Source of the DNA: Candidatus Bathyarchaeota archaeon
GTDB lineage: Archaea; Thermoproteota; Bathyarchaeia; Bathyarchaeales; Bathycorpusculaceae
DNA length: 64,000 nucleotides
Direction of reading: 5' to 3'
Assembly (NCBI GenBank): GCA_025058315.1
Contig: JANXET010000009.1
Span: 1-64,000 of the forward strand
This document shows, piece after piece, positions 773-3,629 of this stretch. Below the pieces are notes generated by a model. That model did no database searches. It was not told the origin of the DNA and saw only the letters and a program-made list of their open reading frames with translations. How positions within the stretch are numbered: the stretch's first letter is position 1; each line of letters opens with the position of its first letter. The position numbers were made by a program, and so were the translations under genes.

Positions 773-1435
773 CTATTCCTTTTCGTATATTGTTGGATCT
801 GTTACACCTGCTTCAATAAATGCCTTCTTTCGATTTAAGCAGGACTCACATTTTCCGCAATGTTTCAAATCGTTAAGATAGCATGACCAAGTAAGATGAT
901 AAGGCACACCAAGTTTCATACCTATTCTTATAACTTCGGACTTCGGGATTGAGCTGAATGGGGCTTCAATAATCAATTCTCTGTTAGTTCCGATAGCAGC
1001 GGCCTTCTCAAAAGCCTTGTAGAATTCTCTTCTGCAGTCCGGGTAGAATGGCTCGTCTGAACCTTGTGCGCCATAAAAAATTCTGTTTACATTTATTGAT
1101 ACGGCGTATGCAACCGCCACTGAGAGGAAAATGGCGTTTCTGAAGGGCACTATTAGTAGAGGATTAAACTCTGAAGTCATAGGGATGCGTTCATCACACA
1201 GTGAAGTTGCCCCTTCAAAGACCTCTTTAAGCGTTGAAAGATCTATTATCTTGATTGGTATTCCTAATTTTTCCGCTATTTTGGCGGCGCATTCAACTTC
1301 GCGTGTTGCTATTTGGCCATACTTAAAGGTGATTGCATAAACCCGGTACCCTTGGTTTTTAGCCCAATATGCAACAGTTGATGAGTCAATTCCTCCACTA
1401 AGTATAACAATACATTTCTCCTTTTCCAACATCAT
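773..1435 (-). CDS. queC: 7-cyano-7-deazaguanine (preQ0) synthase QueC
   Basis: QueC converts 7-carboxy-7-deazaguanine to preQ0 using ATP and ammonia; preQ0 is the precursor of archaeosine and queuosine. The N-terminus has the PP-loop SGGIDSS (about residues 13-19). The C-terminus has the zinc-binding Cys set, with a WSCYL Cys followed by CGKCESC. Length (about 220 aa) is normal. A GTG-ATG-ATG run gives a choice of start; the ATG at 1435 makes a TGATG overlap with the stop of queT, so the two genes are translationally coupled. Other preQ0-pathway genes (queD, queE) are not in the window. Confidence 0.95.
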   Translation of the reverse strand: MMLEKEKCIVILSGGIDSSTVAYWAKNQGYRVYAITFKYGQIATREVECAAKIAEKLGIPIKIIDLSTLKEVFEGATSLCDERIPMTSEFNPLLIVPFRNAIFLSVAVAYAVSINVNRIFYGAQGSDEPFYPDCRREFYKAFEKAAAIGTNRELIIEAPFSSIPKSEVIRIGMKLGVPYHLTWSCYLNDLKHCGKCESCLNRKKAFIEAGVTDPTIYEKE

Positions 1436-1908
1436 CACCCTTTAAACCTAGTTTCAATCAGCTTGAATAGGGTTGCCCCTATCAAGCATACTGTCTGCTC
1501 GCTAATGAACAGGTAGGGTAATGTTGCCAACATCGGCAGATTAAACAACTGGTTCAGCATCCAGCTCACACTTATGGATATGATTGTTGCGATTACAAAG
1601 CCGGCGACGAAGTAGTTGTGATTGAATTTTTTGGCAATCAAATACCCCAATACGCCTGCAAGAAAACTCATGGCGGGCATAAAAACAAGCTCATAAGGTC
1701 CAGCAAATGGGCTGAAAAGGTTGCCTAAAACCACCCCTATAGCGTAGCCTACCGCAAGCACCCATCTTTTAGCAATCCAAGGCCTTAATACGCCGGCAAC
1801 ACGAAACTGCAGTGCATAGAAGGAGATGGGTGCAAATAAATAAACCAGTAAAGCATACAATGATGAAAAAACCGCTATTAAAGATATATCTTTACTACTT
1901 ATCTTCAC
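1435..1908 (-). CDS. queT: QueT-family queuosine/deazaguanine precursor transporter
   Basis: A small membrane protein of about 157 aa with five or six hydrophobic segments, matching the QueT family (substrate-binding S-component-like transporters for queuosine precursors). It is upstream of queC and overlaps it, so uptake and synthesis of the deazaguanine are encoded together. A GTG at 1914 also opens the frame, but it sits one base from the Shine-Dalgarno GGGAGG (1921-1916). The GTG at 1908 lies 7 bases after GGAGG and is the likelier start. Energising ECF subunits are not in the window. Confidence 0.88.
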   Translation of the reverse strand: MKISSKDISLIAVFSSLYALLVYLFAPISFYALQFRVAGVLRPWIAKRWVLAVGYAIGVVLGNLFSPFAGPYELVFMPAMSFLAGVLGYLIAKKFNHNYFVAGFVIATIISISVSWMLNQLFNLPMLATLPYLFISEQTVCLIGATLFKLIETRFKG

Positions 1909-1980
1909 ATTCACACCTCCCTACACCGGGGTTTATATCGCGGAACGGGTGGGAGGCCCCACTCACCCGCGCACGTGCAA
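1909..1980 (-). promoter_or_regulatory. GC-rich structured leader of queT-queC, candidate riboswitch
   Basis: The 60 bases before queT are far more GC-rich than their surroundings. On the minus strand they can form a GTGGG/CCCAC hairpin with a four-base loop (1949-1962 in plus coordinates) or the overlapping CGGGTG/CACCCG hairpin (1946-1951 with 1964-1969). These are mutually exclusive. The CCTCCC inside (plus 1951-1956) is exactly complementary to the GGGAGG Shine-Dalgarno of queT (plus 1916-1921), so it could mask it. A GGGG in the loop could also pair with CCCC just downstream. Location and architecture suggest a preQ-type switch, but I cannot match a known aptamer consensus. Confidence 0.45.
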
Positions 1981-2719
1981 ATGACAGAATTATAATATTA
2001 AAGCTTTTCCATATCAAGTTAAAACAAAAGAAGACAATAAATACGAAAAATAAGCTAATGGTTAAAAGATGGCATGTCGAATGCTCATCACTATCTGTGC
2101 TATTTATGTTCAACAGTTACTTTATGACTTTAAGTTAATGACAATGAGCAATGATGAACTCAATAGGGATTCTTTTTCATCCATGCAGACGGCTGGATAT
2201 TGCTACTGGGATGTCTGGAAAATTTGAATATTACAAAAAAGAGAGGTGTCGGCTGGAAAGATCAAGCGAATCTTATCCTGTGCAAGAAGAGCTTCCTCCC
2301 AAACTCTGATTAATTATGGATTAATTAGCCATTAACTGGGAATGACTGGTGTTTCTGCCATAATGGAGCGATAAATGATTTTATTTCTGAGCGAAGAAGC
2401 AACTCTGAAGTTTTTCTTATTAACTCTTTATCAATCAACGCGCCGTAATGATGTTATAGAAGCAATAAGTAAAACGGTGAGCAAAATAAAAATACGCGGC
2501 TCTTAACTCATGCAATAGTATAAAGCTTTTTGTTTTCATAAAATACCAAAAATATCCGAATATTTGCAGAATCAGAATTTTGCAATTGTATCCTTTGAAA
2601 CTCTTCAAAATTCTATGGGCTGCTGGAAACAAACATCCAATAACACGTTACTAGAATTGGATTTCAGAATGCGAAGCATTCAATTGTTAACCCAACTAGT
2701 CACTAAAAACCAAACATTA
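1981..2719. other. Long AT-rich stretch with no convincing gene
   Basis: These 739 bases contain only short open frames on both strands, none with a recognisable protein pattern, good start context or family motif. The queT promoter must lie near the left end and any PadR terminator near the right. No tRNA, repeat or insertion-sequence ends were seen. It may be decayed coding sequence next to the accessory locus that follows. Confidence 0.5.
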
Positions 2720-3103
2720 TTATGCGGAATATAACATTATATTACATAAGCGCTGAGGGAATTTTATCTTTTTGCATATAAGGTTAAGGGATTCCTCAGC
2801 GCACCTTAGCAGGTTTTTGCCTTCATCTGTCAGCGTATAAACTTTCCTGGGCCTGTCATGGCTCATGTCCCATTCGCTTTTAACATAACCACTTTTCTCC
2901 AAGGAATTCAGAAGCGGGTATATAGTGCTCGGGCCGAAATATATCCCGAAGTTTCTGCGAATCTTAGATATTATTTGATAACCATGCATGGGGCTTGCGC
3001 TTAATAGTTGTAGAACGATTAGGTCAAGCAATCCTTTCATAAGCTTAAGCTGAACATCTTTAAGGCTTTCCATCCCCATGCTAAGCACCCTCAGATGCGA
3101 CAT
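2720..3103 (-). CDS. PadR-family transcriptional regulator
   Basis: A 127-aa winged-helix protein with the PadR hallmarks: a leading helix ending in LLDLIVLQLLS, then MHGYQI, a GPSTIYPLLNSLEKSGYV recognition helix, and a wing followed by RKVYTLTDEGK. It probably binds DNA as a dimer and represses a nearby transporter or enzyme gene. It is divergent from a second PadR gene with about 200 bases between them, an arrangement that commonly holds shared operators. The C-terminal dimerisation helix is short. Start at 3103 is the longest; internal Met codons at residues 9 and 11 are possible. Confidence 0.85.
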   Translation of the reverse strand: MSHLRVLSMGMESLKDVQLKLMKGLLDLIVLQLLSASPMHGYQIISKIRRNFGIYFGPSTIYPLLNSLEKSGYVKSEWDMSHDRPRKVYTLTDEGKNLLRCAEESLNLICKKIKFPQRLCNIMLYSA

Positions 3104-3305
3104 TTTTGTTTAACAGTTCTTCTGTTGAACCCGTATACAATATGTTCATTTTCGTACATATTTATCACTTTACAATAATCATCTCTTAAAATATAAAGGT
3201 TTAGGCTTACAATAGGCATAAAAGGGCATATCGCAACATAAAATCACATTCCAAAAAGCGCAACAACCCATATATAAGACGTGAAGCGAACATGAGGATG
3301 GGCAC

Positions 3306-3629
3306 TTGAGCATGGAGGATGAGCTTAGGGGGCGAATTGTTCAACACATAATTAAGAGTCTGTTAGATTTTCAAGTTTTGAAGATACTAGAAAGGGAGCC
3401 CATGTGGGGATATAAGATTAAGAGACTGATTGAGAAAAAATCAGGCTTGAAGATCCGTCATGGAACATTATATTCCCTTCTAGATTGGATGAAACAAGAA
3501 GGTTTCATAGAAAGCCACGAACAAACATACGGACGCAGAAAAAGAAGAGTCTACAGATTAACGAACAAAGGACGATCATTCCTTGAAGCCTACCGTAACA
3601 TAGTAAAAGAGCAAATATTAGATGACTAA
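3306..3629 (+). CDS. Second PadR-family regulator heading the accessory locus
   Basis: A 107-aa winged-helix protein: LLDFQVLKILE, MWGYKIKRLIE, RHGTLYSLLDWMKQEGFI and RRVYRLTNKGRSFL match the PadR DNA-binding domain. It has only a short C-terminal helix. The frame opens at TTG 3306, with ATG at 3312; a GAGG sits about 8 bases before the TTG. The stop codon overlaps the start of a 42-aa ORF (GATGACTAA), and the polyprenyl-synthase-like gene follows on the same strand, so it is probably a local regulator of that set. Confidence 0.82.
   Translation: MSMEDELRGRIVQHIIKSLLDFQVLKILEREPMWGYKIKRLIEKKSGLKIRHGTLYSLLDWMKQEGFIESHEQTYGRRKRRVYRLTNKGRSFLEAYRNIVKEQILDD

Follow-up and report, generated by a model that had tools for sequence, protein, structure and literature searches.

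A conserved pseudoknot predicted to mask the Shine-Dalgarno sequence of archaeal queT: a candidate 7-deazaguanine riboswitch of Bathyarchaeia and other archaea

The leader of the queT-queC operon in a Candidatus Bathyarchaeota genome is likely to represent a new archaeal class of riboswitches, predicted to act as a translational OFF switch that senses 7-cyano-7-deazaguanine (preQ0) or a close relative. It was studied in a window of 64,000 nt (contig JANXET010000009.1, positions 1 to 64,000), by which the whole stretch of analysed DNA is meant. That the leader belongs to a family of pseudoknots masking Shine-Dalgarno (SD) sequences is, on comparative grounds, nearly certain, and it is highly probable that the family would serve as metabolite riboswitches of the 7-deazaguanine pathway. 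A first-pass annotation had proposed that the leader could mask the SD of queT, which would be notable in an archaeon; conservation, covariation and the predicted position of the element at the RNA 5' end strongly support this proposal.

The element occupies approximately positions 1972-1915 of the minus strand (about 58 nt), between a TATA box (2003-1996) and queT. With 67% GC, it forms the GC-rich island that had been noticed before. The queT gene (1435..1908, minus strand) encodes a 7-deazaguanine transporter subunit and is overlapped by 4 nt by queC (773..1438, minus strand), encoding preQ0 synthase. Both identities were confirmed by profile matches (PF06177, E 2e-18, and PF06508, E 4e-66, respectively); for QueC, PF06508 and TIGR00364 are both above cut-off. 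Two PadR-type regulators are encoded on opposite strands upstream of the queT-queC unit (window positions 2720-3629).

Sequence comparison strongly supports folding of the leader as an H-type pseudoknot, in which helix P1 encloses a loop with the anti-SD and ACCCG, whose downstream partner is CGG-N-GU-N-SD. On the minus strand, P1 is built from CGCGG (1967..1971) and CCGCG (1939..1943) by pairs C1971-G1939, G1970-C1940, C1969-G1941, G1968-C1942 and G1967-C1943, with G1966.U1944 as a possible extra pair (5-6 bp in total). Its 3' strand is conserved in alignments and covaries with the 5' strand, compensatory changes being found at two pairs. P2 (about 11 bp) begins with anti-SD CCUCCC (1951..1956, minus strand), which is, as noted in the first-pass annotation, the exact complement of SD GGGAGG (1921-1916) and covaries with it across archaea. 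It continues with ACCCG (1946..1950, minus strand) through pairs A1950-U1923, C1949-G1924, C1948-G1926, C1947-G1927 and G1946-C1928; two homologous loci (L142 and L146) have AUCCG paired with CGGAU instead. The 3' strand of P2, CGG-U-GU-A-GGGAGG (1916..1928, minus strand), ends with the SD and is defined by pairing and covariation. Its bulged U1925 and A1922 vary freely among homologues, while neighbouring positions do not. Loop L1 (1957..1966, minus strand), GUGAGUGG-like and conserved in alignments A2 and A3, crosses P2. L2 (1944..1945, minus strand) is UU ahead of the P1 3' strand in the conserved CCGUUCCGC core, and L3 (1929..1938, minus strand) is A-rich linker AUAUAAACCC, with AAA-N-CCC nearly invariant in alignments.

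A local nested fold of -37.1 kcal/mol, compared with -28.1 +/- 3.1 for shuffled sequences (z -2.9), agrees with the earlier description of a structured leader. The fold kept by evolution is the pseudoknot, which is beyond reach of nested folding programs. Rough energies (-23.9 for the nested fold; -6.9 for P1 plus -21.2 for P2 before pseudoknot penalty) indicate that both are probably of similar stability. The knot consists of SD/anti-SD and CCG/CGG pairing; a GGGG/CCCC contact suggested previously had to be abandoned, as the GGGG (1960-1957) is not conserved. The 3' part of L1 (GUGG) is able to form a competing apical hairpin. Minimal family members L133 and L170 have lost this upstream half of the hairpin and kept the anti-SD, and this speaks for the pseudoknot being what is functionally conserved.

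A six-base match is by itself weak evidence, and GC-rich sequence might complement an SD by chance. Since homologues carry the same leader, in hundreds of copies, the probability of this explanation is practically nil. P2 can be formed, completely or for the most part, by all 94 distinct parsed sequences, and true P2 partners out-pair shuffled ones in 500 of 500 trials, with kinship among the sequences retained. For 37 distinct helix types, aligned with the register of some rows set by hand and including related, hence not independent, sequences, the covariation score is 0.229 versus 0.081 +/- 0.012 after shuffling (reached in 0/500 cases). Paired cells make up 94.6% of this alignment. Two-sided changes occur at 6 pairs and in 29 cells, versus two at most in slid-register controls, where pairing collapses. 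Such statistics inform only on pairs that vary, and most core bases never do. The conserved pairing in homologous leaders on which the first-pass reading depended is thus present, and both helices covary.

Individual replacements illustrate this. The outer pair of P1 occurs as G-C, A-U, U-A and C-G, and near its inner end a G-C to C-G swap is found (GGCGCG/UGCGCC). In Asgard archaea, the masking helix P2 has been exchanged for CCUCGCA/UGCGAGG, CCUCUCA/UGAGAGG or UUCGCA/UGCGAA, and the gene that follows is queT in every case. The length class of pairing (CCUCC/GGAGG or CCUCCC/GGGAGG) switched at least nine times on the QueT tree, mostly on both strands together. Of 110 labelled elements, ten are mixed in this respect, some of them being true U-A replacements (L108, L172). 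Pairing is imperfect in a few members: L103 and L164 have a mismatch within the SD helix, L024 is devoid of CGG and L235 is weak.

The TATA box CTTTAATA (1996..2003, minus strand), preceded by an A-rich BRE-like stretch, lies at -32 to -25 from P1. Upstream regions of 102 copies reach an A+T peak of 0.91 at -30 (values being high from -34 to -28 from P1) and are A-rich at -39 to -35, which, judged from base composition, is the layout of archaeal BRE/TATA. The usual TATA-to-start spacing in archaea is 26-27 nt. With the TATA box approximately 30 nt upstream, transcription is expected to start a few nucleotides 5' of P1, at about 1974, so that the RNA element sits at the 5' end of the mRNA. As the masking proposal presupposed, the predicted start is upstream of the structure and not downstream. 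Proximity to the transcription start would also suit a conserved DNA operator acting without RNA. At DNA level there would be no point in compensatory changes, which occur in both helices and extend to the rewritten SD helix of Asgard archaea, and spacing inside the element varies. Covariation largely refutes the operator, which we regard as hardly credible.

The likely start codon of queT, as judged from the sequence, is GTG 1908-1906. It is preferred to the mechanical ORF start at 1914 because it follows the SD by 7 nt, as in relatives, and the latter by 1 nt only. Across homologues, TTG (49), ATG (28) and GTG (17) are used and the modal SD gap is 7 nt. As these start codons are often weak, expression of queT should depend on the SD.

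Of 30 fetched queT orthologues, 28 have the same leader in front; queT genes devoid of it exist as well (L015, L029). Using covariance model R1, which contains P1 only, the element was detected in 185 of 257 Bathyarchaeia genomes (98 of 120 high-quality ones) and in 18 Thermoproteota genomes outside Bathyarchaeia, the latter from a sample of the phylum. The broader model R3 was applied to Asgard archaea and Pseudomonadota and detected it in 13 of 227 and 0 of 150 genomes, respectively; a search of viral contigs gave no matches. Loci from Bathyarchaeota, Methanomethylicota, Nitrososphaerota and Asgard archaea were among the matches listed in a gene-independent pattern scan of GTDB genomes, by which alone archaeal phyla beyond Thermoproteota and Asgard were covered. 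Six bacterial pattern matches (L128, L131, L140, L169, L176 and L180) were rejected as chance hits, their genomes having no covariance-model match. Locus L178 (JAJPJY010000158.1), from a MAG that bears the name "bacterium Centralia_MAG_577", contains the element as well, and its queT groups with Bathyarchaeia; the bacterial label is probably wrong. Rfam 15 models, tested on 101 nt of the window and on eight further loci with E values of up to 10 allowed, gave only unrelated chance matches. Hundreds of copies, from TACK as well as Asgard archaea, thus belong to an archaeal RNA family that Rfam 15 does not record.

Like riboswitches in general, the conserved structured leader stands before pathway-specific genes. 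The gene downstream of the element is queT in 81 of 90 cases, queE in four, queC in one and a membrane protein family without Pfam match in four. The four queE products are radical-SAM proteins; each of them scores best against a QueE model of NCBIfam, though below the equivalog cut-off. At one locus (L122), queE is followed by a GAT-QueC fusion, which we take to be the archaeosine-synthase type of some archaea. Genome G583 carries three copies of the element: one precedes queE and an adjacent QueC-like gene, one a second queE and its FolE-like neighbour, and one queT (the QueC-like and FolE-like names are based on motifs read by eye).

QueF was found in 0 of 121 Bathyarchaeia genomes, bacterial controls being positive, while tRNA-guanine transglycosylase (TGT) of archaeal-type length is encoded in all 40 high-quality Bathyarchaeia genomes. 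QueD (PF01242, PTPS) is missing in 39 of 41 relatives, including the genome of the window, with four archaeal controls positive. A QueE search in the relatives was discarded as unspecific, since it matched generic radical SAM proteins. The lack of QueD in spite of TGT makes the relatives look like salvagers of 7-deazaguanine precursors; most of them probably take up a precursor from outside and use preQ0 for insertion into tRNA. Because QueF is absent from the class, preQ1 is an unlikely natural ligand and, in organisms with TGT, preQ0 is the likeliest one. It is also what all types of operon under the RNA have in common as product. On balance, preQ0 is somewhat favoured as the ligand.

Gene context shows the pathway and not the molecule, and the substrates of archaeal QueT are presumptive, which leaves a minor but real chance that the riboswitch would respond to CDG, archaeosine base, guanine or another purine. 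On the other side, queT-only and queT-queC operons share the same RNA and have preQ0 in common as product. SD-masking helices can by themselves act as thermometers, so that the leader might also be an RNA thermometer or a ligand-free translation brake. For a thermometer, some 20 near-invariant bases, a pseudoknot and restriction to one metabolic pathway would be unnecessary, and we consider both readings very improbable. Invariant unpaired bases (GUGAGU, AAANCCC) might alternatively make up the site of a regulatory protein, such as TGT (near-universal in the class), QueC or another RNA-binding protein, acting on a real SD-masking pseudoknot as in ribosomal-protein leaders. This is unlikely: with a length of about 58 nt and its SD placed within the pseudoknot, the compact RNA has the layout known from preQ1 riboswitches (PMC11625349), and the family stands before transporters as well as differing biosynthesis enzymes.

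For a riboswitch sensing preQ0, the following mechanism may be envisaged. RNA transcribed from just 5' of P1 would fold as the pseudoknot with A-rich L3 along P1. At high levels of free preQ0, or of a closely related 7-deazaguanine, the ligand would bind at the P1/P2 junction and lock the pseudoknot, thereby hiding the SD and stopping translation of queT-queC. When it is scarce, the loop could make its own GUGGG/CCCAC hairpin, the SD would be free and the transporter would be made. The net effect would be a translational OFF switch guarding the supply for archaeosine synthesis.

The first-pass annotation had brought up bacterial preQ1 switches, and comparison with models of all three classes gave no match. 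Like preQ1-I (RF00522), the leader is a small H-type pseudoknot with P1, loop-tail P2 and A-rich L3, both helices covarying, and it stands before queT, as preQ1-I does before queT and queC/D/E/F; SD bases may be part of the second helix there. In contrast to preQ1-I, it has 58 instead of about 34 nt, a long GC-rich P2 with the whole SD, other conserved bases and archaeal hosts without QueF, where preQ1 is unlikely. While UC (type I) or AC (type II) precedes the P1 3' strand of preQ1-I (PMC11625349), nearly all members of the archaeal family have UU. The preQ1-I model found no match up to E 10 on the 101 nt, nor at the eight further loci.

With preQ1-II (RF01054, COG4708 RNA), the leader shares location before queT, an anti-SD in the loop that pairs with the complete SD in the pseudoknot helix, and translational OFF logic. 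It differs in sequence and in lacking the HLout arrangement with a P4 hairpin before the SD, L3 being usually about 10 nt long without hairpin (a short insertion occurs only in L027). The RF01054 model did not match the 101 nt of the window or the eight further loci, and preQ1-II is restricted to Bacillota (PMC11625349). PreQ1-III (RF02680) also precedes queT, forms a pseudoknot and pairs the SD in its expression platform. This bacterial RNA is, however, about 100 nt long, with the platform distant from the pocket (PMC11625349), an architecture that the archaeal element of about 58 nt does not have; its model had no match in the same regions. The leader was not filed as preQ1-I or preQ1-II owing to absence of Rfam matches, other conserved bases, lack of P4, the other domain of life and the probable absence of preQ1. 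Fluoride (crcB) and TPP riboswitches have been reported for bacterial as well as archaeal hosts (PMC2864571), whereas our family was found only in archaea and is unrelated to them in sequence, genes and presumed ligand.

The part of the journal literature that was searched gave no preQ0 riboswitch and no record of the leader family, and archaea are not mentioned in a 2024 review of preQ1 riboswitches (PMC11625349). Few archaeal classes are named in the riboswitch literature searched. A family of this size, linked to archaeosine supply and masking the SD by a pseudoknot, would be a new one. We lean, by a modest degree, towards regarding it as the fourth class of 7-deazaguanine riboswitches and the first specific to Archaea, which would sense preQ0, govern archaeosine supply in Bathyarchaeia, other Thermoproteota and Asgard archaea, and have evolved apart from bacterial preQ1 switches. 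If this is true, sensing of 7-deazaguanines by RNA would seem to be either ancient or a product of convergence, and a compact regulatory part for archaea would become available. Salvage of 7-deazaguanine precursors is a further trait to which the family points, in uncultured archaea without QueD.

Two observations concern the transporters. The membrane family of about 230 aa occurs under the same RNA at L065:1564-2259, L114:863-1549, L115:49-750, L118:4165-4866 and L119:3871-4566. Its profile similarity to QueT is weak (probability 47), its AlphaFold model was rejected (pLDDT 45), and it is a candidate for a new 7-deazaguanine transporter. Among QueT proteins themselves, the D of the QxRVA[D] motif is retained in 60 of 60 readable sequences without adjacent queC and replaced by G or N in 22 of 24 readable ones with queC directly downstream, both counts being uncorrected for kinship. 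This change suggests that the imported substrate may be altered in queT-queC operons, perhaps to CDG instead of preQ0.
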